Shown here one piece after another: positions 13,722 through 31,244 of a stretch of 64,000 nt of DNA. How positions within the stretch are numbered: the stretch's first letter is position 1; each line of letters begins with the position of its first letter. The notes beneath the pieces were generated by a model, which saw nothing but the letters and a program-made list of their open reading frames with translations, was not told where the DNA came from and ran no database searches. Origin of the DNA: Janthinobacterium rivuli. GTDB lineage: Bacteria > Pseudomonadota > Gammaproteobacteria > Burkholderiales > Burkholderiaceae_D. The translations under genes and the position numbers were made by a program. The stretch covers positions 5,828,001-5,892,000 of the forward strand of contig NZ_CP121464.1 in assembly GCF_029690045.1 (NCBI RefSeq), in the 5' to 3' direction.

Positions 13722-16037
13722 TCATAAACACGATACCACGCCGCCCAGGCTTTCATAACCGCTCACGGACGGCGACCAGGCCGCGCCGTTCCACGCCTTG
13801 TGGAACAGGGCGCCGTTCGTGCCCGTGACAAACACGTCGAGGCGGTTCGGCGCCCAGGCCGTGGCGCGCGGCCGCGAGGTGCACACGCCGCCCAGGTTGT
13901 CAAAACCCGTCACGGAGGGCGACCAGGCGGATCCATTCCAGGCCTTGTGGTACAGGGCGCTGTCCGTGCCGATGACGAACAGGTCGAGCCGGTTCGGCCC
14001 CCACGACACGGCTTCCACCTCGCCCACGCAAACGCCGCCCAGGCGCTCGAAACCATCGTTGGAAGGCCCCCATTTCGCGCCATCCCACCATTTGTGATAC
14101 AGGGCGCCGTCGGTACCCGTGACGAAAACGTCGAGGCGGTTCGGTCCCCACGCCACGGCTTTCGGCGACGAGGTGCAGATGCCGCCCAGCCGCTCATAGC
14201 CCGTCAGCGACGGTCCCCAGGCCGTGCCGTTCCACCACTTGTGGTACAGGGCCCGGTCCGTGCCGACGACGAACACGTCCAGGCGGTTCGGTCCCCACGC
14301 CACGGCTTCCGGCTGGCCCAGGCAAATACCGCCCATGGCTTCATACCCCGTCAGCGACGGCCCCCAGGCGGCCCCGTTCCACCACTTGTGATACAGGCCG
14401 CGGTCCGTGCCGACGACAAACACGTCGAGGCGGTTCGGTCCCCAGGCCACAGCGCGCGGGTCGCCCACGCACAAGCCGCCCATCGCTTCGTAACCGGTCA
14501 GGGACGGTCCCCAGGCCGTGCCGTTCCACCATTTGTGGAACAAGCCGCTGTCGGTGCCCGTGACGAATACGTCGAGCCGGTTCGGCGCCCACGACACGAC
14601 TTGTGGCGCGCTGGTACAGATGCCGCCCTGCCCCTCGTAGCCGGTGACGGATGGCGCCCAGGCCGTGCCATTCCAGGCCTTGTGGTACAGCGCGCGATCC
14701 GTGCCCACCACGAAGACGTCGAGGCGGTTCGCGCCCCAGGCGACGACGGGAGAAGAGCTCTGGCGCGGCGTGGCGCCTGCGCCCGTTCCGCCCGTGCCGA
14801 TGCTGGCGCGCGGGCCATCGAGGCAAGCCTGCATGCGTGCCACCTGACCGGCCGTGAACATGAACATGGCGGGATCGTCGACGTAATCCATGTAGTTCAT
14901 GAACATGTCGCCATTCGGCCCGTTATTGCACGACACCTGGGGAAACGAGGGCTGGCCCGTGTTCGGCCCGCCCTGGTTCGGCGTGTCGGCCACGTTGTCC
15001 GTGCCCGAGCAACCGGTGCCGTCGTCGCCCCAAATATGGTTCAGATTCAGCCAGTGGCCAATTTCATGCGTGGCCGTGCGCCCCAGGTGGAACGGCGGCG
15101 CCGCCGTGCCCGTCGTGCCAAAGGCCGATTGCAGTATCACCACGCCGTCGGTGGCGGCCGGGCCGCCGGGAAACTGCGCATAGCCGAGCAAGCCGCCGCC
15201 GAGCTGGCAGACCCAGATATTCAGGTAGCTGTCGGCCGGCCAGGCATCCATGCCGCCCGTCGCCTGCGACTTGACGGCATCGTCCGCGCCAAACGAGGCC
15301 ACCGTCGTCTGGCGCCGCTCGATGCCGCTGGTGGCCGCGCCATGCGGATCGGTCGTGGCCAGCGCGAACTCCACGCGCGCATCGGCCGTCAGCGGCAGGA
15401 ATGGCGCTGGCGTACTGTTCACATCCGGGTTGACGCGGCGGAAATCGCGGTTCAGCACATCGATCTGGCTGCCGATCTGCGCATCCGAAATATTCTGCGC
15501 GGCCGTATTCCACACCACGTGCACGACCACCGGGATGTGCGTCACGCCGGCACGCCCCGCAATGCTGGCGTCGCCCTCGTACAACCCGGCCAGGTTTTCG
15601 ATATCGGCGCGCACGTTCGCATACGATGGGTCTTCGGTCAGCAGGCGCCGATGCACGTCCATCGTGGCGCAGGTGCGCGTCTGCGGCGTGCCGCCGCCCT
15701 GCCCCCCATCACCGCCATTGCCTCCGCTATCGCCACCATCGCCGCCCATGCCGCCACCGCCAACCTGCATGCAGCTGGCGCCCGCCATGCCCTGCGGCGC
15801 CTGCTGCATGCCGCCGCCCGGCATGGCGTAGGTATCCGCAGCGGACGCCGCCTGGGTGAGCGCCACCTGGTCGGCATATGACACGCCCAGGCGCAGCCCC
15901 GGCATGGCGTCGCCGCCCGCCGCATCGGCGCCAGCCTGCATGTCGCCCTCGACCGGCATGGACTGCGTGGCGGACATGGCTGGCGCGCCTTCCGCCGACC
16001 CGGTGGCCGGTGATTTTTTCGTTTTAGCGGTGCTCAT
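13722..16037 (-). CDS. M43-type zinc metalloprotease with seven-repeat lectin-like propeller
   Basis: 771 aa from an ATG with GGAGAC upstream. Residues 1-130 are low-complexity (Ala/Met/Gly-rich, poly-Gly-Asp stretch) with no signal peptide. [13 protein letters not shown] opens a pappalysin-type (M43) catalytic domain with zinc site [11 protein letters not shown] (His324, Glu325, His328, His334) and Met-turn M-N-Y-M-D-Y. Residues about 430-771 are seven repeats of about 48 aa built on [25 protein letters not shown], closely resembling the seven-bladed PLL/PHL lectins of Photorhabdus. Likely role: a protease targeted to glycans. Its export route is unclear. Confidence 0.85.
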
Positions 16038-16141
16038 GATGTCTCCTTCGTCTGTTTGCCAGTTCACTATGGCACGGCGAAAAGCGGAGCATTTGCGCCA
16101 GATCAAGACTGGCAAGCGCAAGCAAGGAAAAGTGCTGGACG

Positions 16142-16169
16142 AAAAAAAAGACAGCCGAAGCTGTCTTTT
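16142..16169 (-). terminator. Intrinsic terminator of the Ala/Lys-rich protein gene
   Basis: Minus-strand hairpin AAAAGACAGC / GCTGTCTTTT with a four-base loop (16156-16159), followed by an eight-T run (complement of 16142-16149). It lies 33 bp past the stop of the upstream minus-strand gene and just before the metalloprotease gene, which therefore needs its own promoter. Confidence 0.85.
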
Positions 16170-16201
16170 GGGCTTGCGGGCCGTGGCCCGCAAACAGGGA
16201 A

Positions 16202-16890: not shown

Positions 16891-18108
16891 TCATGCGCCC
16901 ACGGCCAGCGCCGCATGGCGGGCAGCCACCCACTCCTCGTTGGCCGGCTCCACGCCCACCACGATGCGGCTGGCATCGGTGGAAATACGGCTGGCGTTGC
17001 GCGCATTCGCCTCCCCGTCAAGCAAGGGACCGAGGAATCCCAGCTCGGCGCAGATGCGCTGGCGCAGCTCGGCGCTGTGCTCGCCGATACCGGCCGTAAA
17101 CACCAGCATGTCCAGTCCCCCCAGCACGGCCGTCAGGGCGCCGATCTCGCGCACAATACGGCGGATATATAAAGCCAGCGCGGCGCGGATGCGCTCGCCC
17201 GTGGCGTCCTGCCGGTCCTGCTGCGCCAGCAAGACGGGTGGGTCGGCCGACACGCCCGACACGCCCAGCAAGCCCGACTCGTGGTACAGCACATGCGCCA
17301 CTTTTTCCAGCGACAGCTTTTCGATTTCCATCAGGTAGATGACGGCGCCCGGATCGAGCGAACCGCAGCGCGTGCCCATCATCAGGCCATCGAGCGCGGA
17401 AAAACCCATGGTGGTGGCCACGCTGTGCAAGTTCTCCATGGCGCACAGGCTGGCGCCGCTGCCCAGGTGGGCCACGATGACCTTGCCGCGCGCGACGGCG
17501 CCAAAACGCTGCTTCAGCACCAGCGACTGGTATTCATATGACAGGCCGTGGAAACCATAGCGGCGCAAGCCCCGCTCCCACGCATCGTATGGCAGGGCCA
17601 GCATCTGCTCGACCTGCGGCACCGTGTGGTGGAAGGCCGTGTCGAAGCACGCCACCTGGGCGATGTCGGGCCGCGATTCGAGCAGCACCTCGATCGCTTC
17701 GAGCGCAAACGGCTGGTGCAGGGGCGCCAGCGGCACATAACTTTTCAGGTCGGCCAGCACCTTGAAATCGATGCGCACGGGGGCGAAATACTTGCTGCCG
17801 CCGTGCACCACGCGGTGCGCCACGGCGCGCAAGGAACGCCCGTCCAGCTGCGCCACGACTTGCGCGCGGATGTATTCGAGCGCCGCGTGATGCGGCTGCG
17901 CCGGATCGAGTTGCAAGGCGACTGCCGGCAGGCCGCCGGCCCGGTAGGTGGCGTTTTCACGGCCGATGCCTTCGACCTTGCCGCTCCATTGCGCCTGCTG
18001 CGGCAGCACGCCGCCCGCCTGCTCGAACAGGGCGAACTTGATGCTCGACGAGCCGCAATTGAGCACCAGGATCAGGGTGCCATCGGCATGTTGGACTGCT
18101 GCGTTCAT
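16891..18108 (-). CDS. ackA: Acetate/propionate kinase
   Basis: 405 aa. Interconverts acetyl-phosphate + ADP and acetate + ATP (substrate-level phosphorylation). The N-terminal ASKHA motif V-L-N-C-G-S-S-S-I-K-F is present, with H-R-V-V-H-G-G, A-C-F-D-T-A-F-H and the phosphate-binding H-L-G-S-G-A-S further on and F-T-A-G-I-G-E-H near the end. The start codon overlaps the stop of the MaoC-phosphotransacetylase gene as ATGA, so the two enzymes are translationally coupled. It is the last gene of the FNR-linked cluster. A biosynthetic rather than housekeeping role is suggested by context. Confidence 0.93.
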   Translation of the reverse strand: MNAAVQHADGTLILVLNCGSSSIKFALFEQAGGVLPQQAQWSGKVEGIGRENATYRAGGLPAVALQLDPAQPHHAALEYIRAQVVAQLDGRSLRAVAHRVVHGGSKYFAPVRIDFKVLADLKSYVPLAPLHQPFALEAIEVLLESRPDIAQVACFDTAFHHTVPQVEQMLALPYDAWERGLRRYGFHGLSYEYQSLVLKQRFGAVARGKVIVAHLGSGASLCAMENLHSVATTMGFSALDGLMMGTRCGSLDPGAVIYLMEIEKLSLEKVAHVLYHESGLLGVSGVSADPPVLLAQQDRQDATGERIRAALALYIRRIVREIGALTAVLGGLDMLVFTAGIGEHSAELRQRICAELGFLGPLLDGEANARNASRISTDASRIVVGVEPANEEWVAARHAALAVGA

Positions 18109-19520
18109 GGCGGCGTGCTCCGGTAATGGTTGGCCAGCATCACGGCGATGGCGCACGAGGCGATGCGGCTGGCGCGCGAGTCGGCGCGGCTGGTGAGGAT
18201 GACGGGGATTTTCGCGCCCAGCACGATGCCGGCGCTGTCCGCGTCGCCCATGTATTCGAGCTGCTTGGCCAGCATGTTGCCGCTTTCCAGGTCGGGCACC
18301 AGCAAGATGTCGGCGCGGCCAGCCACTTCCGAGACGATGCCCTTGACGGTGGCGGCGGCGATCGACACGGCGTTGTCAAAAGCCAGCGGACCGTCGAGGA
18401 TCGCACCCGTGATCTGGCCGCGGTCGGCCATCTTGCACAGGGCGGCCGCGTCCAGCGTGGCCGGCATGTCGGCGTTCACCGTTTCCACGGCGGCCAGGAT
18501 GGCCACGCGCGGGCAGGCCACGCCGATCACGTGCGCCAGGTCGATGGCGTTGCGCACGATGTCGGCCTTCATGGCCAGGTTGGGCGCGATATTGATGGCC
18601 GCGTCCGTAATGATGAAGGGGCGCGGATACGCCGGCGTCTGCATCAGGAAGCAGTGGCTGATGCGGCGCTTGGTGCGCAGGCCGGCGCTGGCGGCCAGCA
18701 CGGCCGACATCAGTTCATCCGTGTGCAGGCTGCCCTTCATCAAGGCTTCCACTTCACCCTTGCCCGCCAGTTCGGCGCCGCGCGCGGCGGCGGCATGGCT
18801 ATGCTCGACGTCCTCGATGGCGATGCCTTCCAGGCTCAGGCCCGCTTCCAGCGCCACGGCTTCCAGGCGCGCGCGCGGCGCCACCAGCACGGGCGTGATC
18901 AGGCCGGCCGCATGCGCGTCGAGCGCGCCCGACAGGCTCAGTTCATCGCAAGGGTGGATCACGGCCACCCTGATCGGACCCAGGGTGCGCGCGTGTTCCA
19001 GCAGGCGCCGCGTGCCGTCGCCGTTATGCAGGCGTACTTCGGGGAGGGTGGCGCGCTTGCGTTCGATCTGCTCGGCGGGCGCGATCACCTGCGCCTCGCC
19101 ATCGAGCACCACGGCGCCGTGCTGGTTGACGCAGCGGCAAACCAGGGTCACGTGGCGGCTGCGCGGCTCGAGCGCCGTCACGGTGACGCTGATGGCCAGG
19201 GTATCGCCCACCCGCACTGGCTGCAAAAAGCGCAGGGTCTGGCCCGTGTAGACGGTGCCTGCGCCGGGCAGGCGCGTGCCCAGCACGGCGGAAATGAGGG
19301 CCGCACCCCACATGCCGTGCGCGATCACGCCCTCGTAACGGGTGGCGGCGGCAAATTCCGTATCGAGGTGCTGCGGGTTGTCGTCGCCCGACATCACCGC
19401 GAACAGGGCGATGTCGTCCATGCTCAGGGTGCGCGTGATGCTGGCGGTGTCGCCGATGGCGATCTGGTCGAAGGTGCGGTTGCGTACGATATTCAGATCA
19501 TCGTCTTGGGGAGTAGTCAT
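18105..19520 (-). CDS. Bifunctional MaoC-type hydratase / phosphate acyltransferase
   Basis: 471 aa, two domains. Residues about 15-155 are a MaoC/R-hydratase hot-dog fold with the catalytic Asp/His signature in S-G-D-D-N-P-Q-H, followed by G-V-I-A-H-G-M. Residues about 170-465 are a phosphate acetyl/butyryltransferase (A-L-M-K-G-S-L-H-T-D, I-T-D-A-A-I-N-I-A-P, G-P-L-A-F-D-N-A, P-D-L-E-S-G-N-M). The fusion joins hydration of enoyl-CoA with conversion of acyl-CoA to acyl-phosphate, which the neighbouring kinase can turn into ATP. It lies 9 bp downstream of the DUF3141 gene. Substrate chain length is not evident. Confidence 0.92.
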   Translation of the reverse strand: MTTPQDDDLNIVRNRTFDQIAIGDTASITRTLSMDDIALFAVMSGDDNPQHLDTEFAAATRYEGVIAHGMWGAALISAVLGTRLPGAGTVYTGQTLRFLQPVRVGDTLAISVTVTALEPRSRHVTLVCRCVNQHGAVVLDGEAQVIAPAEQIERKRATLPEVRLHNGDGTRRLLEHARTLGPIRVAVIHPCDELSLSGALDAHAAGLITPVLVAPRARLEAVALEAGLSLEGIAIEDVEHSHAAAARGAELAGKGEVEALMKGSLHTDELMSAVLAASAGLRTKRRISHCFLMQTPAYPRPFIITDAAINIAPNLAMKADIVRNAIDLAHVIGVACPRVAILAAVETVNADMPATLDAAALCKMADRGQITGAILDGPLAFDNAVSIAAATVKGIVSEVAGRADILLVPDLESGNMLAKQLEYMGDADSAGIVLGAKIPVILTSRADSRASRIASCAIAVMLANHYRSTPP

Positions 19521-19529
19521 CGTGGTCTT

Positions 19530-21782
19530 CTAGGCAGGGGTAATGTGTTTGGCCGGTTTGGCTTTCGGTTCAGTCCTGGATGTGCGCACAACCGATTGCT
19601 GCTCCTTGACCGCCCGGTCAAAGACGTCCAGCATCTGCTGCAGGCTCGCTTCCTCGTCCGGCGTCGGCGCCTCGGGCACTTGCAGCACTTGCTGCAGCCA
19701 TTCGGCCAGCGCGCCGATGTCGTCCGGGTCGGCGCGCGACAGCAAGGCCGGCAAGGCGGCGATGGCCGCATCGAAATCATGCAGCATCAAGCGCGCCTGC
19801 TGGCGCACGATACCGCGGAACTCCTCCATGCCGACATCCTGCCGGTATTGCGGCTTGATCAGTTTGAGGGCCAGGTTGACCCTGCGCTCGTCGGCGATCA
19901 TGCGGAAGCGGTAGATGTAGAACAGCGCGCGCACGGCCGCTTCCACCAGGCCGCCCCGCTGCATGTCCTCGTCCATCTTGCGCGTTTCGCAGCGCACGTA
20001 TTCGCAATGCTCGGGCGAGATGCCGGGATGGGGGCGCGGCGGCGTCGTGTCGCCGATGGCTTGTCCCGTCAGCGCCTGCACCAGGGGCGAGCCGTACACC
20101 AGGTCGAAGGTGGTTTCCTGCACGCTGTCGCGCCAGTCGCGCCAGCCGTTCAAGCCGGCCGTGATGGCGCCGGAGATGGCTTCCTGCATGGCCAGCAGCG
20201 GATTGTCGGGCGATACCGGCTGGCGCTGGGCGCGCACTTTTTCCGCCTCTTTGGCCACCAGCCTGGCCAGCGGATTGTGATCCGTCCAGCGCTCGTACGA
20301 CACGCGCAGCGGATGCGCGAGCTGCAGGAAGCGCGCCGTCTGCGGCGTCACCATGGCGCGCACCCACGGCTGCGCAAACGTGCGGTACAGGGCCAGATTC
20401 ACTTCCGACACGCGCGCGGCGGCGGCGAACTTGCGGTCGTTTTCCACGCTCGGCTGCACGATGGCGCGCACGTCGTCGATGCCGCGGTGCTCGACCTGCA
20501 GCACATAATCGCCGCTGGCCAGGTCCGCGTTCGGCGTATCGGGCGTCTTGTCGACAATCCGCGCTTCGTAGATACCGGCCGGCAGCAGGTTGATCAGATC
20601 GATATTGCTGGCGAATTTCTGGTGTTCCTTGTGCCCCACCTTGGCCGACACAAAAATGCCCAGGTGGCCGATGCTGTCATGCACGGCGTAGACGATGGTC
20701 TGGTCGTGCAGCAGCACGTCCTTGTCGTCGCGGTACAGGTCCGTGATCCAGCCCAGCGCCTGCGGCGGCGGCGTGATGTTGTCGCCGTTCGAGCAAAACA
20801 CGACGATGGGCGAACGGATGTTGCGCAAATCCAGGCGCACGCCGTCGGAGGTGATCAATTCGGCCGTGGCCAGGCGGTTGCCGATGAACAGATTGTCGAC
20901 GATATACTGCATCTCGACGTCGTTCAGGAAGACGTGGCCGCCCCAGTATTTTTCAAATTCCAGGTAGCGTGGCGCTTCCGTGTCGATGTTCGCGTACAGA
21001 TTGTACTGCTTGCCCCACAGGGTATTGGCCGGGTTGAGCTTTTCGAAATTTTGCACCAGGCTGGCGCCGTCGAAGCGGCCCTTGCCCAGGTCGCCCGCCA
21101 AGGCCGTGGCCCAGCTGCCGCCCATCAGGCCACCCGCGTAGCGCATCGGATTGCGGCCATGCCAGCCGGCCCAGTACGACACGGGCGCGCCGGCCACGAT
21201 GATGGGGCCGAACAATTCCGGGCGCATGGCCGCCGTCATGAGGATTTGCCAGCCCGCCTGGCAATTGCCGATGACGACGGGTTTACCCTCGCTGAGCGGA
21301 TGCAGGGCGATGACTTTTTCCAGGAAGGCCGCCTCGGCGTGCATCACGTCTTCCACCGTCTGTCCCGGCACGGGATCGGGCAGGAAGCCGATGAAGTAGC
21401 ACGGGTGGCCGGCGCGCAGGGCCACGCCGATCTCGCTCTCGGCCTTGAAACCGCCGATGCCGGGACCGTGTCCCGCGCGCGGATCGACGACGACGAAGGG
21501 GCGCTTCGATGGATCGGGTTCGGGCGCATCGGGCGTCAGGATGCGCGCCAGGCCATAGTTGACGGGGCGCGCCAACTCCAGGCCCGACAGCACCAGTTCG
21601 GCGGGGAAGTCCAGCACGTTCGGCACTTCCTCGGCCATGTGCTCCTGGTACTGGTTGCCGCGCCGGCGCATCACGTCCGCATACAGCACGATGCGCTGCC
21701 ACGAGTCGCGCGCATAGTCGCCCAGCACGCCCAGCGACGGCAAGCCGCCGGTGGAGAAAAATGGTGCAGCTTCGATCTTCAT
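19530..21782 (-). CDS. DUF3141 protein, PHA-synthase-like alpha/beta hydrolase
   Basis: 750 aa from an ATG preceded by AAGGA. The frame runs much further upstream into the permease gene, but that part is antisense-like. The core (residues about 90-390) looks like an alpha/beta hydrolase related to PhaC polyhydroxyalkanoate synthases. The nucleophile elbow is G-N-C-Q-A-G with Cys174, the acid is in C-S-N-G-D (Asp334), and the His is in S-I-G-H-L-G (His373). The remainder is helical and of unknown role. It is followed by the MaoC-PTA and acetate kinase genes, so an acyl-CoA substrate is plausible. No biochemical role is established to my knowledge. Confidence 0.85.
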   Translation of the reverse strand: MKIEAAPFFSTGGLPSLGVLGDYARDSWQRIVLYADVMRRRGNQYQEHMAEEVPNVLDFPAELVLSGLELARPVNYGLARILTPDAPEPDPSKRPFVVVDPRAGHGPGIGGFKAESEIGVALRAGHPCYFIGFLPDPVPGQTVEDVMHAEAAFLEKVIALHPLSEGKPVVIGNCQAGWQILMTAAMRPELFGPIIVAGAPVSYWAGWHGRNPMRYAGGLMGGSWATALAGDLGKGRFDGASLVQNFEKLNPANTLWGKQYNLYANIDTEAPRYLEFEKYWGGHVFLNDVEMQYIVDNLFIGNRLATAELITSDGVRLDLRNIRSPIVVFCSNGDNITPPPQALGWITDLYRDDKDVLLHDQTIVYAVHDSIGHLGIFVSAKVGHKEHQKFASNIDLINLLPAGIYEARIVDKTPDTPNADLASGDYVLQVEHRGIDDVRAIVQPSVENDRKFAAAARVSEVNLALYRTFAQPWVRAMVTPQTARFLQLAHPLRVSYERWTDHNPLARLVAKEAEKVRAQRQPVSPDNPLLAMQEAISGAITAGLNGWRDWRDSVQETTFDLVYGSPLVQALTGQAIGDTTPPRPHPGISPEHCEYVRCETRKMDEDMQRGGLVEAAVRALFYIYRFRMIADERRVNLALKLIKPQYRQDVGMEEFRGIVRQQARLMLHDFDAAIAALPALLSRADPDDIGALAEWLQQVLQVPEAPTPDEEASLQQMLDVFDRAVKEQQSVVRTSRTEPKAKPAKHITPA

Positions 21783-21799
21783 GGCTATCCTTTTCATGC

Positions 21800-21823
21800 A
21801 AAAAACGCCGGACCATTCCGGCG
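21800..21823 (-). terminator. Intrinsic terminator between ABC permease and DUF3141 gene
   Basis: Minus-strand hairpin CGCCGGA / TCCGGCG with a 4-base loop and a six-T tail (complement of 21800-21805). It lies 6 bp past the permease stop and only 18 bp before the DUF3141 start codon, so it splits the cluster into an exporter part and an acyl-metabolism part. Read-through, or a promoter inside the permease gene, would be needed downstream. Confidence 0.85.
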
Positions 21824-21829
21824 CGGGAG

Positions 21830-22954
21830 CTATGCCATCTGACTGATGGTCTTGCGAAAACGGGCAAGGGCAAACGTGAACAGGGCCGTGCCGATGGCCA
21901 GCAGGGCCAGGAACGGCTTCCACACCACGTCGATGCCGGCGCCCCGGTACAGAATCGCCTGGCTCAATTCGACGAAATGCGTGGTCGGCGCGATCAGCAT
22001 GATGTTCTGCACCAGTTCGGGCATGCTTTCGCGCGGCGTGCTGCCGCCCGACAGCATCTGCAGCGGCAGCAGCACGAGGATCAACAGCATGCCGAATTGC
22101 GGCATGCTGCGCGCCACGGTGGCGAGGAAAATGCCCATCGACGTGGTGGCAAACAAGTGCAGGGCCGCGCCGCACAGGAACAGCGCGATCGAGCCTTCGA
22201 TGGGCACGTGCAGCATGCCGCGCACCACCAGGTTCAGCGACAGGGCGGCGGCCAGCAGCACCACCAGGCCCATCGACCATACCTTGCCCAGCATGATTTC
22301 GGCCGGCGTCACGGGCATCACCAGCAAGTGCTCGATGGTGCCGTGTTCGCGCTCGCGTATCAGCGCCGCCCCGGTGAGGATGATCGACAGCATCGTCACC
22401 TGGTTGATGAGCTCCATCAGCGAGCCAAACCACGCCTGGCTCAGCGACGGGTTGAAGCGCGCGCGCATCACCAGTTCCACGGGCGAGACGGTCGCACCGC
22501 GATAACGTTTGGCGAATTCGGATACTTCACCGGCGACGATCTGCTGGATGTAGCCGCTGCCGCTGAAAGCCTGGCTCATGCGCGTGGCGTCCACGTTCAG
22601 CTGCAGCTCCGCGTGGCGTCCGCCCAGTACGTCCGCCTGCAGCTTGGGCGGTATCGTCAGCACGAAGGTGTACTGGCCCGCGTCCAGGCCCGCATCGACC
22701 TGGCTCTGGTTGATCATGGCCGGCGGCGTGAACTGCGGCGGGAAGAAGGCCGAGGCGATGCGCCCGGACAGCGGCGAGCCATCCTCGTCGACGATGGCGA
22801 TCGAGGCCATGTGCAGGGTTTCCGGCTTGGCAGTGGCGGCCACGTAGATCGCCAAAGTAAACGTGTAGAGGATCAGGATCAGCATCATCGGATCGCGGAT
22901 CAGGCTCCAGATTTCCTTCACGCCCAGGCGGTAGATGTTTTCAAGGTGCCGCAT
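21830..22954 (-). CDS. ABC-2 type permease, YhhJ-like
   Basis: 374 aa. Topology of exporter permeases of the ABC-2 family: one N-terminal span (about 20-45), a large extracytoplasmic loop to about residue 175, then five spans (about 180-370) with the family signature R-E-R-E-H-G-T-I-E-H-L-L-V-M-P-V-T-P near 205. The usual partner gene, an RbbA-type fused ATPase-permease, ends 1 bp upstream, and a HlyD-type adaptor and outer-membrane factor precede that. This matches the yhiI-rbbA-yhhJ organisation seen in enterobacteria. Substrate unknown. Confidence 0.9.
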   Translation of the reverse strand: MRHLENIYRLGVKEIWSLIRDPMMLILILYTFTLAIYVAATAKPETLHMASIAIVDEDGSPLSGRIASAFFPPQFTPPAMINQSQVDAGLDAGQYTFVLTIPPKLQADVLGGRHAELQLNVDATRMSQAFSGSGYIQQIVAGEVSEFAKRYRGATVSPVELVMRARFNPSLSQAWFGSLMELINQVTMLSIILTGAALIREREHGTIEHLLVMPVTPAEIMLGKVWSMGLVVLLAAALSLNLVVRGMLHVPIEGSIALFLCGAALHLFATTSMGIFLATVARSMPQFGMLLILVLLPLQMLSGGSTPRESMPELVQNIMLIAPTTHFVELSQAILYRGAGIDVVWKPFLALLAIGTALFTFALARFRKTISQMA

Positions 22955-22955
22955 A

Positions 22956-25706
22956 TCAGCTCTCCTGTTTCTTCAGCAGCGCCACGGTCACGCCGAGGAT
23001 CACGGGGATGGCGATGATCAATGGCCAGAACGAGGCGTGCAGGTCGCCGAATCCCAGCGCCTTGTTGAACACGCCCCGGCTGATATTGAGCATGTGCGTG
23101 GCCGGGTACATCAGGCCGATGGCCTTGCCCACGCCTTCCATCGAGGAAACGGGATTGAGCAGGCCGGAAAACTGGATGGCCGGGATCATGGTGCCGATCA
23201 TCGTCACGAACAGGGCCGCGATCTGGCTGCGCGTAAAGGTCGAGGCGAACAGGCCGATGCCGGTGGCGCAGATATTGAAGATGAAGGTGGCGCCGATCAG
23301 GGTCGCCAGGCTGCCCTTGATCGGCACGCCGAAAGCGGTGACCGCCAGCAGCGCCATGAGGAGGAAGTTGAACATGGCCAGCGCCACATACGGCACCTGC
23401 TTGCCAAGCAAGAATTCCAGGCGCGTGACGGGCGTCACGTACAGGTTGATGATGGAACCGAGTTCCTTTTCGCGCACCACGGACAGCGCCGCCAGCATGG
23501 CCGGCAGCATCAGCAGCAGCAAGGGAATCACGGCCGGCACCATGGCCGGCAGGCTTTTCACGTCGGGGTTGTAGCGGTAGCGGGTCTGGATGGCGACGGG
23601 GTTGTTCATCTTGATGCCATAGCGGTGCAAGGCCTGGTCGGCCAGCCACAGCTGGTGCATGCCCTGCACGTAGCCCTGCACGGTTTCCGCGCGCATCGGC
23701 ATGGCGCCATCGATCCACGCGCCCACCTGTGCCGGCGCGCCGCGCTGCACGTCGCGCGCGAAGCCGGGCGGGATCTCGATGGCCAGCGACAGTTCGCCGC
23801 TGCGCATGCGCTTGTCGATATCGGCATAGTCGCGCAGCGGCGGGCGTTCGACGAAGTAGCGCGAGCCGGCCAGGTTATTCGTGTAATTCTGGCTCAGTGT
23901 CGTCTGGTCGTGGTCGAGCACCGCGTAGCTCAAGTCCTCGACGTCGAGGCTGATGCCGAAGCCGATGACGAACAGCAGCAGCACGGAGCCGCCCAGCGCC
24001 AGGGTCAGGCGCACGGGATCGCGCCGCAGCTCCAGCGTCTCTCGCCACATGTAGCTGAGCATGCGGCCCAGGCTGAAGCGGCTGCGCTGCTGCTTCTGCT
24101 GTGGTGCGGCCGCTTCAGCCTTCTGCACGGGCGCCTCGCTTTCCTGCGTCGCCGCTGCCGTGCCGCCGCCCGCCTCTTCCAGGTAGGCGATGAAGGCCGC
24201 TTCCAGCGATGGCGCACCCTTCTTGCGCACCAGTTCGGCCGGCGCATCGCTGACCAGCACTTTACCCGCGTGCATCAGCGAGATGCGGTCGCAGCGCTCG
24301 GCCTCGTTCATGAAGTGGGTGGAAATGAAAATGGTGACGTGGTCGCGCCGCGCCAGCTCGATCATCAGGCGCCAGAAATTGTCGCGCGCGATGGGGTCGA
24401 CGCCGGACGTCGGCTCATCGAGGATCAGCATTTCCGGCTTGTGCACCATGGCCACGGCCAAGGACAGCCGCTGGCGGATGCCCAGCGGCAGGCTGTCAGG
24501 CAAGTCGTCCATCACCGCGCGCAAATCGAAGCGCTGCGCCATCTCGTCGATGCGCGCCCCTATTTCGCCCTCTGGCACGTGGAACAGGCGCGCGTGCAGC
24601 ACCAGGTTCTGGCGCACCGTCAGCTCGCTGTACAGCGAGAAGGCCTGCGACATGTAGCCGACCCGGCGGCGCGTGTCGATATCGCTGGAGTCGACCTCCT
24701 TGCCGAACAGCCAGGCCTTGCCTTCCGTGGCCGGCAGCAGGCCCGTGAGCATTTTCATGGTGGTCGACTTGCCGCAGCCGTTCGAACCGAGAAAGCCGAA
24801 GATCTCGCCGCGGCCGATGCGGAAATTCACATGGTCGACGGCCGTGAAATCGCCGAAGCGCATGGTCAGATCCTGCGCCTCGATGGCGACGTCCTGCGCG
24901 CTGGCCGCGTCCAGCGGCGTGATCACCACAGGCTGGTGGCCAGCGCGCTTGGCTTCCGGCAGCAGCTTGATGAAGGCCGCTTCCAGGGTATCGCTTTGCG
25001 TGCGCGCCAGCAGTTCGGCCGGCGTGCCCGTATCGAGCACCTTGCCGTCATCCATGGCCACGAGCCAATCGAAGCGCTGCGCCTCGTCCATGTAGGCCGT
25101 GGCCACCATCACGCTCATTTGCGGGCGCTGCACGCGAATGCCGGCGATCAGGTCCCAGAACTGCGCGCGCGCCAGCGGATCGACGCCGGTGGTCGGTTCA
25201 TCGAGAATCAGCAGGTCGGGATCGTGGATCAGCGCGCAGCACAGGCCCAGCTTCTGCTTCATGCCGCCTGACAGCTTGCCGGCCGGACGCGCAAGGAACG
25301 GCTGCAAGCCCGTGCTGCGGGTCAGCTGGTCGATGCGGCGACGGCGCTCGGCCGCGTCGTGGCCGAACAGGCGCGCGAAAAACTGCAGGTTTTCCTCGAC
25401 CGACAGGGTCGGATACAGGTTCTTGCCCAGGCCTTGCGGCATGTAAGCGATACGCGGACAGACCTCGTCGCGGTGGCGCGCATCGCGCATGTCGCCGCCC
25501 AGCGCCATCACTGTGCCCTGCTGCACGGCGCGCGCGCCGGCCACCAGCGACAGCAAGCTCGATTTGCCCACGCCATCGGGGCCGATCAGGCCCACCATGC
25601 GGCCGGCCGGCACGTCCAGGTCGATGCCGTCCAGCGCCACCGTCTTGCCGTAATGCTGGCTGACGCCCTTGATGCTGACGACAATGGAAGTGGAAGCCAC
25701 GGTCAC
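22956..25706 (-). CDS. rbbA: RbbA-type fused double ABC ATPase and permease
   Basis: 916 aa. Two ABC ATPase domains followed by an ABC-2 permease. The first (1-240) has Walker A G-P-D-G-V-G-K-S and signature L-S-G-G-M-K-Q. The second (about 265-490) has Walker A G-S-N-G-C-G-K-S and a degenerate signature L-P-L-G-I-R-Q. The permease (about 530-916) has one span, a large loop, then five spans with the motif [10 protein letters not shown]. coli RbbA was described as ribosome-associated, but its gene context is that of an exporter. Here it sits between a HlyD-type adaptor and a second permease, so export is the likelier role. Confidence 0.9.
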
Positions 25707-26776
25707 TGCGGGACCTTGGCCGTCAGTTCAGCGGGCCATGGCTGCTTCGCATCGAGACGCACCCAGGCCACGCCGGGCAAGCCCACTTTGACGAGGGCCA
25801 GATGCTTTTGCAGCAGCTCGCGGCTGATCTGCGCTTTCACACGGAACATCAGTTTCTGGCGTTCGCTGGCCGTTTCCACGGTCTTCGGCGTGAACTGCGC
25901 GCTGGCGGCGACAAACGAGATCGTCGCGGGAATCACATAGTTCGGCGCCGCGTCGAGGATGATGCGCACTTCGCCGCCCAGCGCCACCTTGCCGGCCGCC
26001 GTCTCGGGCAGGAAGAAGGTCATGTAAACGTCCGACAGGTCGACCAGGTTGAGCACCTTGCCGCCGCCGGCCAGCACTTCACCCTGCTGCGCCACCAGGT
26101 ATTGCACGCGGCCGTCGCGCGGCGCCGCCAGCTGGCCGTCAGCCAGGTCGGCATCGATGCGCGCCGTGGTCGCCTCGGCCGCCACGACGGCGGAGCGGGA
26201 ACCGACCACCTGCGCTTTTGCCGCGTCGATGGCCGCTTGCGCCGCCGTCACTTGCGCCCTGGCCGCATTCAGGGCGGCGGCCACGCTGCGCACGCGGGCG
26301 CGGTCGTCGTCGAGTTCCTGTACCGAGGAAGCGCCCTCTTTCGACAAGGTTTCGGAGCGGGCCAGGCGGCGTTTGGCCGCATCGAGTTCGCTTTCGCGCT
26401 GCGCCACCATGGCCAGCGCGGCCGCCTTGTCGCTTTCGCGCACGGCCACCTGCGCCTGCACGCCGACCACGGCGTCCAGCGCCTGCTGCTGGCGCGCGCG
26501 CGCCTCGTCGCGCTGGGCCGTCAGCGAATCGACCTGCATGCTGGCCAGCGGCTGGCCCGCCTTGACGAAGTCGCCCTCGCGCACGAGGATCTCCTTGACC
26601 CGGCCCGCCAGCTTGGTGGCGACGTCGACTTCCGTCGCTTCGATACGGCCATTGCCGCTGACAAAACCTTCGCCAGGGCCCGTGGGACGCATTTTTTGCC
26701 AGGCCACATAGCCCAGCACGAGAACGGCCACGAGCAGCGCCGCGGGGATGAGTTTTTTCTTCAGTTGAGCATTCAT
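25703..26776 (-). CDS. HlyD-family periplasmic adaptor, YhiI-like
   Basis: 357 aa. An N-terminal membrane anchor (about residues 8-26) is followed by a biotinyl-lipoyl half ([18 protein letters not shown]), a long Ala/Glu/Arg-rich coiled-coil hairpin (about 85-200), the second lipoyl half, and a beta-barrel domain. This is the standard membrane-fusion protein that connects an inner-membrane transporter to an outer-membrane factor. Its stop overlaps the RbbA-type start by 4 bp, and it lies 18 bp downstream of the outer-membrane factor gene. Confidence 0.92.
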
Positions 26777-26794
26777 GGTATCGGGGCGATCAAA

Positions 26795-28246
26795 TTAGTG
26801 GGTGGAAGCGGCGGCGGAGGCGACGGGTGCGCCGCCGCCCAGGGCGGCATACAGGCTGACCTGGCTCGAGAGCAGCGCGCGGCGCGTCTGCACCAGTTGC
26901 TGCTCCACCGTCAGCAAGTCGCGCTGCGCATCGAGCACTTCCAGGTAGGGCGCGGCGCCATTGTCGTAGCGCAGCTTGGCCAGGCGCGCCCGTTCGCTCT
27001 GCGCGGCCAGGGTCGTCTTGCCGATGTCGACCTGCAGCGCCAGCCAGCGCCGGTTCGACAGCGCATCGGCCACTTCGCGGAAGGCGCCCTGCACGCTCTT
27101 TTCATAATTGGCCACGGCCACGTCGCGGCGCACTTCGGCCAGGTCCATATTCGCGCGCAGGCGGCCCGCATCAAAGATCGGCAGCACCAGGCGCGGCGCG
27201 AGATTCCAGGCGCCGCTGCCCGAATCGAACAGGCCGTTCAATTCCGCGCTGGCCGTGCCGTAGGCAGCCGTCAGCGAAATGGTCGGGAAGAAGGCGGCGC
27301 GCGCGGCGCCGATATTGGCTTGCGCGGCGCGCAACTGGTGTTCGGCCGCGATCAGGTCGGGGCGCTGCGTGAGCAAGGCCGAGGGCAAGCCCGCATGCAG
27401 CGGCTGCAGCACGCTGGCGTCGTCGAAGCGACTCACCTCACCAGCCACCGGCGTCAGGTCGACGGGGCCGCCCACCAACTGCGCCAGCGCATGCGCCTGC
27501 ACGGCGCGCGCCTGCTCCAGCTGGGCCGACAGCGAGAGGGCCTGGCTGAGCAGGGTTTCCACCTGCGTCAGGTCCAGCTTGGAAATCGAACCGACTTCAA
27601 AACGGCGCGTGAAGATGCGCAGCGATTCGGCGCGGCTGTCGACCGTGGCACGCGCCAGCGCCACCCTTTCATCGAGTTCGCGCAAACCCAGGTAGCCATT
27701 GGCCACCTGCGCCACCAGGGCCACGCCGACGGCGCGGCGCGCCTCGTCGCTGGCCAGCAGGGTTTGCAGCGCGCTGTCCTTCAGGCTGCGCACCCGGCCC
27801 CAGAAATCAAGCTCCCAGGCGCTCACGTTCAAGCCCGTTTGGTACTGCGCGCTCATCATGGCGCGGCCCGTCGGACTCAGGTCGGCCGGCACGCGCGCGC
27901 GGCTGCCGGAGGCGCCCAGCGCGATGGTGGGAAATTGCTCGGCGCGCACGATGCCATACGCGGCGCGCGCCTCTTCCACGCGCAGGGCGGCGATGCGGAT
28001 GTCGCGGTTGCTGGCCAGCGCCTGCGCAATCATCGCCTGCAGGCGCGGGTCGGCAAAGTAGGCTTGCCAGGCGACGTCGGGCGCGCTTGCGCCGGCCGTA
28101 TCGGTTTCCGGGTACTGCGCCGCCACGGGTAGCGGCGGTGGCGCATACGGCGGCGCCATCGAGGCGCAGCCGGCCAGGGCCAGCGTGGTGGCCAGCGCGG
28201 CCATCCTGGCGCGGTGTGGCAAAGTAAAAACAGCCTTGGTCATCAT
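26795..28246 (-). CDS. NodT-family outer-membrane efflux lipoprotein
   Basis: 483 aa. A lipoprotein signal peptide ends at L-A-L-A-G-C (Cys near 27), after which come the two OEP (TolC-like) repeats with alternating long helices and beta segments. Typical sequence such as A-Y-G-I-V-R-A-E-Q-F-P, L-D-F-W-G-R-V-R and R-P-D-L-I-A-A-E-H-Q-L-R-A-A is present. It would form the outer-membrane channel for the HlyD/RbbA/YhhJ-like exporter encoded immediately downstream, completing a three-part pump across both membranes. Confidence 0.93.
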   Translation of the reverse strand: MMTKAVFTLPHRARMAALATTLALAGCASMAPPYAPPPLPVAAQYPETDTAGASAPDVAWQAYFADPRLQAMIAQALASNRDIRIAALRVEEARAAYGIVRAEQFPTIALGASGSRARVPADLSPTGRAMMSAQYQTGLNVSAWELDFWGRVRSLKDSALQTLLASDEARRAVGVALVAQVANGYLGLRELDERVALARATVDSRAESLRIFTRRFEVGSISKLDLTQVETLLSQALSLSAQLEQARAVQAHALAQLVGGPVDLTPVAGEVSRFDDASVLQPLHAGLPSALLTQRPDLIAAEHQLRAAQANIGAARAAFFPTISLTAAYGTASAELNGLFDSGSGAWNLAPRLVLPIFDAGRLRANMDLAEVRRDVAVANYEKSVQGAFREVADALSNRRWLALQVDIGKTTLAAQSERARLAKLRYDNGAAPYLEVLDAQRDLLTVEQQLVQTRRALLSSQVSLYAALGGGAPVASAAASTH

Positions 28247-28253
28247 CTTCCAG

Positions 28254-29036
28254 TCAATTCAGAATGTTGTAGCCGCCATCGACATACAGGGTGCCGCCCG
28301 TGATGGCGCGTGCGCCGTCGCCGGCGAGGAAGGCGCACAGCGCGCCCACGTCCTCGATGGTGGCCAGGCGCCGCATGGGCGAGCGTTCGATGGCGTCAGC
28401 CATCAGGCGGTCGAAATGGGCGATGCCGGAAGCGGCCCGCGTCTCCAGGGGACCGGGCGAAATGGCGTTCACGCGGATGCCTTGCGGGCCCAGTTCCGCA
28501 GCGAGGTAGCGCACCGACGCTTCCAGCGCCGCTTTTACGGGACCCATCAGGCCATAGTCGGCGATGACTTCCTCGGCGCCCAGGTAACTCATGGTGGTCA
28601 AGCTGCCGCCGTCCGGCATCAGCGGTTCGGCCAGTTTCGCCATGCGCATGAAGGAGTGGCAGGAGACATCCATCGCCTGCGCAAAGCCGTCGGCGGAACT
28701 GTCCGTCACGCGGCCATGCAGGTCCTGCTTCGGCGCGTAGGCGATGGAGTGGACAACGAAATCGAGCCGTCCCCACTGCCGTTCGATCTGCGCGAACAGC
28801 GCTTCCAATTGCCCCGGCACGGCCACGTCGAGCGGCGCCATGATGGCCGCCTGCACTTGCTGCGCCAGCGGCTCCACGTGCGGCCTGGCCTTGTCATTGA
28901 GCCAGGTCACGGCCAGTTCGGCGCCGGCCGCGCGCAGGGCGCTGGCGCAGCCCCAGGCGATGCTTTGCGTGTTGGCGATACCCACCACCAGGCCCCGCTT
29001 GCCCTGCAAAGGCAGCTGCTGCAAGGGGGCCGTCAT
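28254..29036 (-). CDS. FabI-type enoyl-ACP reductase
   Basis: 260 aa. A short-chain dehydrogenase fold of the FabI class: nucleotide-binding G-I-A-N-T-Q-S-I-A-W-G instead of the classical SDR glycine motif, S-I-A-Y-A-P-K, and the catalytic Y-x6-K as Y-G-L-M-G-P-V-K, with R-V-N-A-I-S-P-G-P and G-G-T-L-Y-V-D-G-G-Y at the end. FabI reduces enoyl-ACP with NAD(P)H. Being the head of an exporter and acyl-phosphate cluster, it is likely a second, specialised copy rather than the housekeeping enzyme. The start was chosen because its ATG overlaps the upstream small ORF stop as ATGA. Confidence 0.9.
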   Translation of the reverse strand: MTAPLQQLPLQGKRGLVVGIANTQSIAWGCASALRAAGAELAVTWLNDKARPHVEPLAQQVQAAIMAPLDVAVPGQLEALFAQIERQWGRLDFVVHSIAYAPKQDLHGRVTDSSADGFAQAMDVSCHSFMRMAKLAEPLMPDGGSLTTMSYLGAEEVIADYGLMGPVKAALEASVRYLAAELGPQGIRVNAISPGPLETRAASGIAHFDRLMADAIERSPMRRLATIEDVGALCAFLAGDGARAITGGTLYVDGGYNILN

Positions 29037-29218
29037 GCCTGGACTGGACGCAGGGCGGGCCACGGCGTGGCCGCCTGCACGCAGCGCACGGCGCCGGCGC
29101 GCACGGTGGCGGCGCACGTGGCCAGGGTCACGCCGCCAACGCGCGCATACGGCAAGGCAATCGGAGAGTGGGGGTGTAAGGTACTGCACGCGTCAGGCGC
29201 GGGGGTCTGCATCTTCAT
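29033..29218 (-). CDS. Small hypothetical ORF leading the FNR-linked operon
   Basis: 61 aa, M-K-M-Q-T-P-A-P-D at the start and R-P-V-Q-A at the end, with three cysteines and no signal peptide, membrane span or recognised domain. GGAAG lies 7 bp before the ATG, and its stop overlaps the fabI start as ATGA, arguing for translation and coupling. It is the first gene after the FNR-type promoter at 29363-29405. It may be a true small protein or only a coupling leader; no homologue is recognised. Confidence 0.45.
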   Translation of the reverse strand: MKMQTPAPDACSTLHPHSPIALPYARVGGVTLATCAATVRAGAVRCVQAATPWPALRPVQA

Positions 29219-29362
29219 GAATCGGCTTCCGTCACTGAAATTCGAGGCACGCACCAGTGCATTTTCGGGGAACTGGTGCGGGGCGAAAATTACTCTACAG
29301 CATTTAGATACGTGATTCGCGATGAGGCCGGTCCGCATGCATAACGCTTTTGAGCTAGGTCA

Positions 29363-29405
29363 ACTATAAGTGCGATTGCGGCAATGCAACATTGATATAC
29401 ATCAA
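29363..29405 (-). promoter_or_regulatory. Class II FNR/Anr-type promoter of the fabI-exporter-ack cluster
   Basis: TTGATATACATCAA (29392-29405) is an exact FNR/CRP-family box of the FNR type (TTGAT-N4-ATCAA). On the minus strand a TATAGT -10 hexamer lies at 29368-29363, placing the box centre about 42 bp upstream of the expected start, the classical class II activator position. No good -35 is present, as expected for an activator-dependent promoter. A second TTGATGTA half-site lies just upstream (complement of 29411-29418). Oxygen control is inferred. Confidence 0.75.
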
Positions 29406-29655: not shown

Positions 29656-31098
29656 TTATTTGCCCGATGCCGGGGCGGGACGCGAATACAGGTCGATGAT
29701 GGTGCTGATGCCATCCTGGCACACGGAGCAGAACGTCTCGCTGCGGTCGAACATGATGCACTGCATCTCGGGACGGTAGTAGCCGGACGACTCGTAGTTC
29801 GCGCCTTCAAAGGCGCCCACCGCATGGCGCTGCGGCGCCTTCGAGAACAGCTGCTGCGTGTACGCCAGGTCGGCCTTGAACAAATCGCTCATCTCGCTTT
29901 CGGGACGGTTGGCCGCGCGCAGGGCGGCGCGCTGCTTCTGGTATTCGCGCGCATGGCTGTCGTACGCTTCCTTCGGCCACGGCGTGGGCAGCGGCGTGCC
30001 CGCCTTGACGTGGTTCTTCCATTTCAGCCTGGCTGGATCGCGCAGCGCCGTGGCGTTCGGCTCCCAAGGTTCCTGGCGTTCGCCATTCGACTGATAGGCC
30101 ACGGGCGAGGTGTAGTACTCGTCGGCCAGGCCCGCAAAATGGTGGCCGAATTCATGCACGAACAGGTAATTGGCCCAGTCATTGTTCGCCGCCGCCGTGC
30201 TGAACTGGCCGAAGATGCCGCCGCCGCCATAGGTATCGTTATTGACGAGGATTTCAATGAACTCATACGGCGCGTACTGCGCCAGGTCGCGCAGGGCGCG
30301 GTTGTCCGTCGTCAGCACATAACGCTCGCTGCCGAAAATGTCGTAGCGCGTGCCCAAGGGTGACGCGTGATGCACGCCCGTCGAAGGGCGCGACACGCCC
30401 GATTCCTGGGTCGGTGCGGCCATGGCCCACACATTGAAGTCCTTGGCCCGCTCGCGAAATGGCGAGACGGTGAAAAGATGCTCGGCCAACTTGCGCGCCG
30501 TCGCTTCGAACTTGCCCATTTCGGCCGCCGTGTAGCCATCGCCCATGATCAAGAGGTCGACCTTGTCGCTGGAGGGACCACTGATGCGGATCGGGATCGG
30601 CTTGACGGGCGCAGGCGGCTGCTTGCGGATCACGTCCTGCGCGGCCGGATCGACATCGGTGCTCCACACCACGGAAAACAGGCCGCGCTCATCGCGTTTC
30701 AGGATGCGCACGCGCACGGGATGCTCGGGCTGCGGGAAGCGCACGGATTCCTGGAAGGCGCGCGTCGTGGTTTTCGCTTCATCGGTGCTGGCCCATTCGC
30801 CAAAGATGGTGGAAAAACCGCGCGAGTACAGCACCTTGCCCGACTTGATGTCGACCACTTCCAGCATATTGTTACCGCGGTTGCTGTCGTCGATGGGACG
30901 CGCCAAATTGCCCGGCCATGGCAGGGGTTCGACCAGCACGCGCTCGACTGCATAATGCTCGCCCAGCGCATTGCCGCTGTGCTGGTAATCGAGGCGCATG
31001 GTGGCCGGCTGGGCGACACTGGCAGCGTGCGCGGCAGGGACGATGCCGAAGGCCAGCGCCAGCGCGCAGAGGAAAGATCGAATCGGGGTCTGCTGCAT
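29656..31098 (-). CDS. Exported M64 (IgA-protease-type) metallopeptidase
   Basis: 480 aa from an ATG with AGGAA upstream. A Sec signal peptide (hydrophobic core about residues 8-20, cleavage after A-H-A near 24) is followed by an M64 N-terminal beta domain and the peptidase_M64 domain starting at D-L-L-I-M-G-D-G-Y-T. The zinc site is HEFGHHFAGLADE (His315, Glu316, His319, with Asp326/Glu327). The C-terminus has the family cysteines in M-Q-C-I-M and F-C-S-V-C. The M64 prototype is a Clostridium ramosum IgA protease; most bacterial members have unknown substrates. It is monocistronic. Confidence 0.9.
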   Translation of the reverse strand: MQQTPIRSFLCALALAFGIVPAAHAASVAQPATMRLDYQHSGNALGEHYAVERVLVEPLPWPGNLARPIDDSNRGNNMLEVVDIKSGKVLYSRGFSTIFGEWASTDEAKTTTRAFQESVRFPQPEHPVRVRILKRDERGLFSVVWSTDVDPAAQDVIRKQPPAPVKPIPIRISGPSSDKVDLLIMGDGYTAAEMGKFEATARKLAEHLFTVSPFRERAKDFNVWAMAAPTQESGVSRPSTGVHHASPLGTRYDIFGSERYVLTTDNRALRDLAQYAPYEFIEILVNNDTYGGGGIFGQFSTAAANNDWANYLFVHEFGHHFAGLADEYYTSPVAYQSNGERQEPWEPNATALRDPARLKWKNHVKAGTPLPTPWPKEAYDSHAREYQKQRAALRAANRPESEMSDLFKADLAYTQQLFSKAPQRHAVGAFEGANYESSGYYRPEMQCIMFDRSETFCSVCQDGISTIIDLYSRPAPASGK

Positions 31099-31244
31099 GT
31101 CATTCCTAAAACGGTAGAAAAACAGGTGAATGGATCGGTTTTCCAAACAATCGGCGGGCCTGCCGGCAGGCGCGGGAAAAACCGCTGCGGCACATTGTAG
31201 CGACAGGAAGCAAGCGTGCAAAGCGCCCTTTTCAGCCGATTCGC

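Follow-up and report, generated by a model that had tools for sequence, protein, structure and literature searches.

What would bring a polyhydroxyalkanoate (PHA) synthase-like protein of the DUF3141 family, an acyl-phosphate module and a tripartite exporter under a single promoter? The question is posed by a run of nine open reading frames (ORFs), all on the minus strand, in a 64,000-nucleotide stretch of Janthinobacterium rivuli DNA (contig NZ_CP121464.1, positions 5,828,001 to 5,892,000; hereafter the window), taken from a genome that consists of a single contig of 6.33 Mb. Scored against Pfam and NCBIfam models, the run reads small ORF, FabI, outer-membrane factor (OMF), HlyD, RbbA, ABC-2 permease, DUF3141, a fusion of MaoC with a phosphotransacylase (PTA), and AckA, which is the gene order named in the original prediction, made from the sequence alone. 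With the starts chosen in this analysis, including a DUF3141 start revised to about 21797 rather than 22433, the intergenic gaps range from a 4-base overlap up to 32 bases, and a single transcript is therefore likely. Upstream of the run lie two adjoining conserved sites, an FNR box and a PhaR-like operator, which suggest a two-input switch that would respond to low oxygen and stored polyhydroxybutyrate (PHB) together. With confidence about evenly balanced, we read the locus as a PHB-linked operon for substrate-level phosphorylation at low oxygen, in which acyl-CoA would be converted to acyl-phosphate and then yield ATP.

The FNR box (TTGATGTATATCAA; 29392..29405, minus strand) is perfect. A search of the window for TTGATATACATCAA found its sole exact match at 29392-29405, and sites with at most one mismatch numbered 3; the average over 100 shuffles was 0.68, and 1 of them contained at least 3. 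A TATAGT -10 element at 29368-29363 on the minus strand (29363..29368) predicts a transcription start at about 29356 and thus puts the centre of the box at about -42, a class II position (TTGAT-N4-ATCAA near -41.5 of a promoter with a sigma-70 -10). Both the exact site and its spacing of some 42 bp from the predicted start are therefore as originally proposed. Genome-wide, there are 49 exact sites with the N4 spacer versus 6 with N3, N5 and N6 combined (55 for N3-N6 in total), which places the N4 class far above its spacer controls; these replaced a reversed-pattern control (0 hits) that was set aside as a poor one, the triplet TAG being probably rare in this genome. A candidate regulator is also present. 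The FNR model has 3 matches in the genome, one of them over the curated cut-off (267.8 bits vs 228), and the translation shows C-x2-C-x5-C plus a fourth cysteine, making up the four cluster cysteines. Beside this gene lies a CcoG/FixG-like ferredoxin frame, read by eye.

Is the promoter architecture conserved? We compared 22 Janthinobacterium promoters: that of the window, that of L060, and those of 20 further loci (L096-L115, the best 20 of 80 kept by their DUF3141 gene). The box is exact in 20 of the 22 and has one mismatch in the other 2; its arms are nearly constant while the N4 spacer varies. In all 22, TATAGT follows the box start at a distance of 37 nt, as located by a script that gave preference to sites having TAT there. 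A preceding scan free of that preference found the pairing in 26 of 27 rows, with some genomes represented twice, and its sole exception was L115, whose first gene is phaC, with the box ahead of it. Among promoters led by FabI or the small ORF, the distance between the box and FabI ranges from 99 to 399 bases. We then turned to 89 distant loci (the 60 of L116-L175 and the 29 of L067-L095), scanning the 500 bases in front of the first operon gene identified at each. An N4 box with at most one mismatch is present at 24 of the 89, as opposed to 0 to 5 for other spacers from N1 to N9; Achromobacter accounts for 13 of these 24, and counting by taxonomic group gives 9 of 58 for the N4 box versus 0 to 4 for other spacers. 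Taken together, the box and spacing kept in close relatives, an FNR protein with its cysteines and the boxes at distant orthologues argue that the operon may indeed be under low-oxygen control, as the original prediction held, and bear out the conservation by which it was to be judged.

The second site was overlooked in the original prediction and is new here. Herbaspirillum seropedicae belongs, like Janthinobacterium, to the Oxalobacteraceae. Its PhbF/PhaR regulator has a motif, TG[N]TGC[N]3GCAA, for which a DNase I footprint is reported (PMC3206438). In the interval from the FNR box to the -10 element, the window carries a PhaR/PhbF-like operator, TGCGGC-AAT-GCAA (29377..29389, plus strand), and TGCGGC-N3-GCA is kept at this place, on the reverse strand of the operon, in 22/22 Janthinobacterium promoters. 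The base that follows is A in 18 of them and G in the other 4, and N3 occurs in six variants. The genome has one match for PhaR itself (PF07879, 104.9 bits), and a match to canonical phaC lies some 1.3 kb away.

Farther afield, the exact motif TG[N]TGC[N]3GCAA occurs upstream of DUF3141 in 22/22 core-type Achromobacter loci, and was not seen at L137, the 23rd Achromobacter locus, which is of the island type described below. Seventeen of the 22 core loci also have an FNR-like box at up to two mismatches, whose first base precedes the start of the motif by 23 to 25 bases; no such box was found at this threshold in the other 5. At a Delftia locus (L146) and in a Burkholderiaceae metagenome-assembled genome (MAG; L166), the motif is followed, 58 bases downstream, by an exact FNR box. 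Over all the distant loci, it is present in 32 of 89 upstream regions (43.6 kb), compared with 35 sites in the 1.73 Mb elsewhere in the same loci, and versions with other spacers are found in 0 to 8 of the 89. The 32 loci are not independent events, because they include kin: 22 are Achromobacter, and seven of one group share a site near -400. Finally, in a phaR mutant of Bradyrhizobium diazoefficiens at 0.5% O2, expression of blr3456 is reported to rise 7.2-fold; this gene has predicted PhaR motifs at -97 and -92 and belongs to a predicted, probably orthologous operon, blr3456-blr3459, in which blr3457 is pta and blr3458 is ackA (PMC10888616).

If PHB is one input, how could the encoded enzymes act on it? 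The DUF3141 protein (19530..21797, minus strand; 954.1 bits against the Pfam model) is an alpha/beta hydrolase with a candidate triad C179-D339-H378, and these residues are invariant in 61/61 DUF3141 sequences as well as in 46/46 of set A1. A Cys-Asp-His triad with a lipase-like box around the Cys is the arrangement of PHA synthases, and HHalign places C179/D339/H378 on C316/D471/H499 of a cluster-associated PhaC (probability 27%, E 6.5e-4). Against solved structures, phmmer gave only a weak PHA synthase match (5xav, E 0.067). Neither a PhaC_N domain nor a class I-IV profile was detected, Pfam returning DUF3141 only and NCBIfam no match; we therefore call the protein PhaC-like rather than PhaC. 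A 2024 classification likewise groups DUF3141 with the C-D-H PHA synthases, according to the account in PMC11878206. The invariant triad and the PhaC alignment thus favour the PHA-synthase-like nature first proposed for this protein. Two canonical PhaC_N matches lie elsewhere in the host genome.

The next gene (18105..19520, minus strand) encodes a fusion of a MaoC/PhaJ-type (R)-specific enoyl-CoA hydratase with a phosphotransacylase, and matches the model for the bifunctional enoyl-CoA hydratase/phosphate acetyltransferase at 741.5 bits (cut-off 282). Its MaoC half is closest to solved (R)-specific enoyl-CoA hydratases and retains DDNPQH. Its PTA half is closest to the phosphate butyryltransferase (Ptb) 7vg9 (3e-64; best acetate-type Pta, 5.9e-14), while falling under the curated Ptb cut-offs (e.g. 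291.2 vs 410.5). DxNPxH is retained in only 4 of 16 long PTA proteins (three from Janthinobacterium, one from Microvirga) and is degraded or missing in 12, and protein lengths show that some other clusters have a PTA without MaoC; the crotonyl step is thus not the core of the module. The fusion persists with a MaoC half lacking DxNPxH at L131, L132, L136, L141, L146, L166, L172 and L173. In such proteins the MaoC half is, to judge by its motif, a decayed or repurposed domain.

The kinase (AckA; 16891..18108, minus strand) belongs to the acetate/propionate family, and the butyrate kinase model TIGR02707 scores it at 43.9 bits, under the cut-off of 289.1. The Val of HR[VI]VHGG, which we take to be typical of acetate kinases, is retained in 26/26 kinases examined. 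At the Asn of the GNG(A/C)S stretch, identified by aligning two solved kinases, the cluster kinases have Ser in 18/26, Asn in 7/26 and Gly in 1/26. This Asn presumably has a role near the active site, and a change of specificity through Ser is possible. Butyrate as a settled product was dropped, given a kinase that is not a butyrate kinase and carries an acetate-like Val in 26/26, and a MaoC motif that is often lost. The FabI-type enoyl reductase (PRK07533; 28254..29036, minus strand, start at 29036) is a second copy, 44% identical to another FabI elsewhere in the genome. It has A..DR in place of KxxRK, which we take to be the acyl carrier protein (ACP)-binding patch of E. coli-type FabI; the loss of this patch is weak proof of a CoA substrate, as other FabI proteins vary there too.

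The same enzymes recur together at a distance. Counting genes within 9 kb that share the strand of DUF3141, and scoring loci that end at contig ends as misses, we find PTA at 43/89 distant loci, AckA at 40/89, and PTA, AckA and FabI all together at 25/89. The DUF3141/PTA/Ack/FabI grouping mentioned in the original prediction is thus supported, whereas the direct PHB-related neighbours described next were overlooked there. ORF clustering in 60 chosen loci, with only the representative of each family scored against family models, yields phasin at 9, PhaC at 10 and a PhaB-like short-chain dehydrogenase/reductase (SDR) at 13, along with universal stress protein (USP) at 7, a Na/glutamate symporter at 8 and LpxR at 6. 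One member of the SDR family scores as an acetoacetyl-CoA reductase (351.5 bits, cut-off 302.1). A plasmid stretch of Pseudomonas veronii combines a DUF3141 match with pta, ackA, fabI, phbB, phbC, an RND-type OMF, yhiI, rbbA and yhhJ. Counting partial alpha/beta hydrolase matches, DUF3141 exceeds its cut-off in 35/145 genomes of the sampled family, in 8/8 of the genus (our own included), and in 15/274 of the sampled class. Other settings were seen as well. L068, L071, L074 and L075 share a neighbourhood in which DUF3141 occurs with RbfA and a methyl-accepting (MCP) chemotaxis receptor, without PTA or AckA, and two conjugative plasmids, L200 (B. ottawaense) and L199 (R. etli p42d), carry DUF3141 without annotated PTA, AckA or FabI beside it; an Hsp20 gene lies near DUF3141 in L200.

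Read as a PHB-linked, low-oxygen phosphorylation operon, the locus could work as follows. As oxygen falls, FNR would bind at about -42 and activate transcription, while PHB granules would titrate the PHA-sensing repressor PhaR off the operator flanked by FNR box and -10 element, so that the operon would fire only when low oxygen and PHB both hold. DUF3141, as a Cys-Asp-His enzyme, may then act at the interface of polymer and 3-hydroxyacyl-CoA, either as a synthase or as a thiolytic depolymerase. The MaoC-PTA fusion, FabI and AckA would take acyl-CoA to acyl-phosphate and ATP, FabI could dispose of NADH, and the RbbA tripartite exporter, as an accessory, would remove a product.

Several observations weigh against this scheme. 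At 65 of the 89 distant loci there is no N4 box at up to one mismatch in the 500 bp examined (some of them have TTGAC-N4-GTCAA-like sites, with two mismatches). The Janthinobacterium operator is one mismatch from the PhbF motif, and two in 4/22 promoters. The degenerate PhaR-like pattern has 4 matches in the window against 4.09 expected, and TGCGGC-N3-GCA is not rare: the Janthinobacterium loci, 451 kb in all, contain it 49 times (5 to 41 times with other spacers), the promoters themselves accounting for about 20. It is only position and conservation that argue for the Janthinobacterium operator. The exact PhaR motif is absent upstream of Delftia L167 and L172. That blr3456 encodes a DUF3141 protein would follow from the order of the operon in Sinorhizobium meliloti, and PhoB controls that related operon, according to a citation in PMC8231600. 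The same paper interprets such clusters the other way round, with acetate being used to make PHA.

This storage direction, with AckA and PTA activating acetate or another short acid to acyl-CoA, which DUF3141 or PhaC would build into PHA as a sink for electrons when oxygen is low, is a tentative alternative, and we consider it the less probable one. It comes near to how phaC/phaJ-pta-ackA clusters have been interpreted in print (PMC8231600 section 11), and PHB synthesis in Herbaspirillum is described as Fnr-dependent and as a redox sink (PMC5862806). The phaC and phaB genes embedded in some related loci would fit it, as would the acetate-kinase-like Val kept in the 26 kinases examined. Yet activating acetate would cost ATP just when oxygen is limiting, the host already has its two canonical PhaC proteins elsewhere, and FabI would be left with no evident role.

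Could the polymer instead be fermented to defined products? In the fullest version, DUF3141 would cleave PHB thiolytically to 3-hydroxybutyryl-CoA, PhaJ (MaoC) would convert this to crotonyl-CoA, the FabI of the operon would use NADH to form butyryl-CoA, and the Ptb-like domain and the kinase would release butyrate and ATP, with the remaining 3-hydroxybutyrate (3HB) going to acetate. Balanced for redox, the yield from two 3HB units would be 2 acetate, 1 butyrate and 3 ATP. Such a fermentation of stored polyester by aerobes, gated by oxygen and polymer, served by RbbA as a product pump and carried on a mobile island, appears rather unlikely as a whole.

The exporter in the window comprises a NodT-family OMF (26795..28246), a YhiI-like HlyD-type periplasmic adaptor (25703..26776), an RbbA-type ABC protein with two ATPase domains and an ABC-2 membrane domain (22956..25706; NF033858, 1604.7 bits, over the equivalog cut-off of 1050), and a YhhJ-like ABC-2 permease supplying a second membrane half (21830..22954), all on the minus strand. 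It is present at 18 of the 20 Janthinobacterium loci, being absent from L110 and L113, and RbbA exceeds its cut-off in 7 of 8 genomes searched. For J. psychrotolerans (L113, G072), the best RbbA match was 192.5 bits against the cut-off of 1050, with 41 of 114 first-look candidates scored, and its locus keeps the box, FabI, DUF3141, PTA and AckA. Since the rest stays in place without it, the exporter looks like a recurrent, separable accessory unit, and the original claim that all parts belong to one pathway does not hold as written. RbbA lies on the opposite strand, with its permease, in three Microvirga loci. We know of no report of the cargo of an RbbA exporter.

A low-oxygen system for membrane lipids, in which FabI and DUF3141 would remodel acyl chains, RbbA would export a lipid and PTA-AckA would merely recycle CoA, could account for RbbA and the ABC-2 permease occurring together in 23/89 distant loci (HlyD also in 23), counted as above, and for an LpxR-family protein in 6/60. 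It is an improbable account, however, for besides the two Janthinobacterium loci without an exporter, no RbbA was found in 22/22 Achromobacter core loci (some of them truncated), and the phasin, PhaB and PhaC neighbours indicate PHA. Least probable of all is a general stress or persistence cassette, a broad low-oxygen island holding DUF3141 and the kinase module with PHB incidental to it: USP and Hsp20 neighbours, DUF3141 beside other genes without PTA/AckA (e.g. L068, L071, L074, L075 and R. etli p42d) and the existence of known low-oxygen loci, lxa of B. cenocepacia among them (PMC4505428), lend it some appeal, but the PhaR-type operator and the linkage to phasin and phaC/phaB are PHA-specific.

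The first ORF of the run (61 aa; 29033..29218, minus strand), whose stop overlaps the FabI start in ATGA, is doubtful as a functional protein. Summed over 10 comparisons, it shows 98 nonsynonymous and 79 synonymous codon changes (the FabI codon comparison was out of register in 7 of 10 loci and usable only for L096, L098 and L108), and it has no match in 5 of the 20 Janthinobacterium loci (L109, L110, L111, L113 and L115). With such weak constraint and patchy occurrence, a functional peptide is unsupported. Beyond the run, an M64 (IgA-peptidase-type) metallopeptidase gene (29656-31221, minus strand) adjoins the operon directly upstream; genes of a single family precede the operon in L098 (521 aa, of equal length), L110 and L115. 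Downstream of AckA is an M43-type metallopeptidase with DUF346 repeats (13722-16193, minus strand).

Some of the distant loci point to movement of the cluster between genomes. Ten of them have 14.5 to 24.2 kb in common, with DNA identity of 89.6 to 97.9%, while being filed under different classes; these island loci (L131-L133, L135-L137, L140, L141, L147 and L173) stand under alpha-, beta- and gammaproteobacteria. Pseudomonas putida 31753 matches Malikia granosa at 96.8% over 22,400 bp, and P. putida matches Thalassospira at 91.6% over 14,595 bp. Several of the ten are MAGs or short contigs in which single cases of contamination are possible; the P. putida sequence comes from a 2.2-Mb contig. 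Near-identical islands across classes point to probable horizontal transfer. In L131 and L132 the genes run OMF-HlyD-RbbA-permease-phasin-SDR-DUF3141-PTA-SDR-AckA-symporter-PhaC-USP-LpxR. E. coli was considered as an island holder and rejected, one 3.9-kb piece of L132 having no megablast match there.

For DUF3141, these results provide a testable role, and they place the RbbA exporter in a metabolic context. One short promoter would tie the recurrent, unexplained DUF3141-PTA-AckA-FabI group to oxygen and polymer sensing. If true, the two-input switch would explain how aerobes could draw energy from a storage polymer when respiration stalls, and the islands suggest that one form of the trait is passed on whole.

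How does the operon compare with known systems? In E. coli the exporter genes run yhiI-rbbA-yhhJ, and the window resembles them in its RbbA over the equivalog cut-off, its HlyD adaptor and its ABC-2 permease; unlike them, it has these genes within a PHA/acyl-phosphate operon and with their own OMF. An orfA-pta-ackA-fabI operon of S. meliloti was reportedly described by Summers et al. in 1999. On S. meliloti pSymA we find the order DUF3141-PTA-AckA-FabI, about 12 kb from a ccoNOQP cluster, and this is probably the same operon. The four-gene set is common to both species, whereas the S. meliloti version differs in its PhoB regulation, in a PTA without a MaoC domain, and in having no exporter annotated within 14 kb on each side. 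The predicted operon blr3456-blr3459 of B. diazoefficiens is similar in containing pta and ackA and in being raised in the microoxic phaR mutant (PMC10888616), but its PhaR motif is the alphaproteobacterial one, and blr3456 is likened to DUF3141 by operon order alone.

Closest in content are the group D1 clusters of Burkholderia sensu lato, in which a fused phaJ-pta occurs with ackA and fabI beside phaC (PMC8231600 section 11), and whose likeness to the S. meliloti ORF-pta-ack-fabI genes is noted by the authors of that paper. The window shares with them a PHA-synthase-like gene (likened to phaC by description only), the phaJ-pta fusion, ackA and fabI; an exporter, an FNR box and a PhaR operator are not mentioned in the first part of that section. 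A literature search that missed most subscription journals found no paper tying DUF3141 or this operon to RbbA, an FNR box or a joint FNR/PhaR promoter. Control of PHB genes by Anr or Fnr is, on the other hand, described for P. extremaustralis and H. seropedicae (PMC9049629, PMC5862806, PMC6588701), and low-oxygen control of PHA genes by the FNR family would be common to those species and to ours. There, the genes controlled are phaC and phaR; here, they would be those of a PTA-AckA-FabI-exporter operon.

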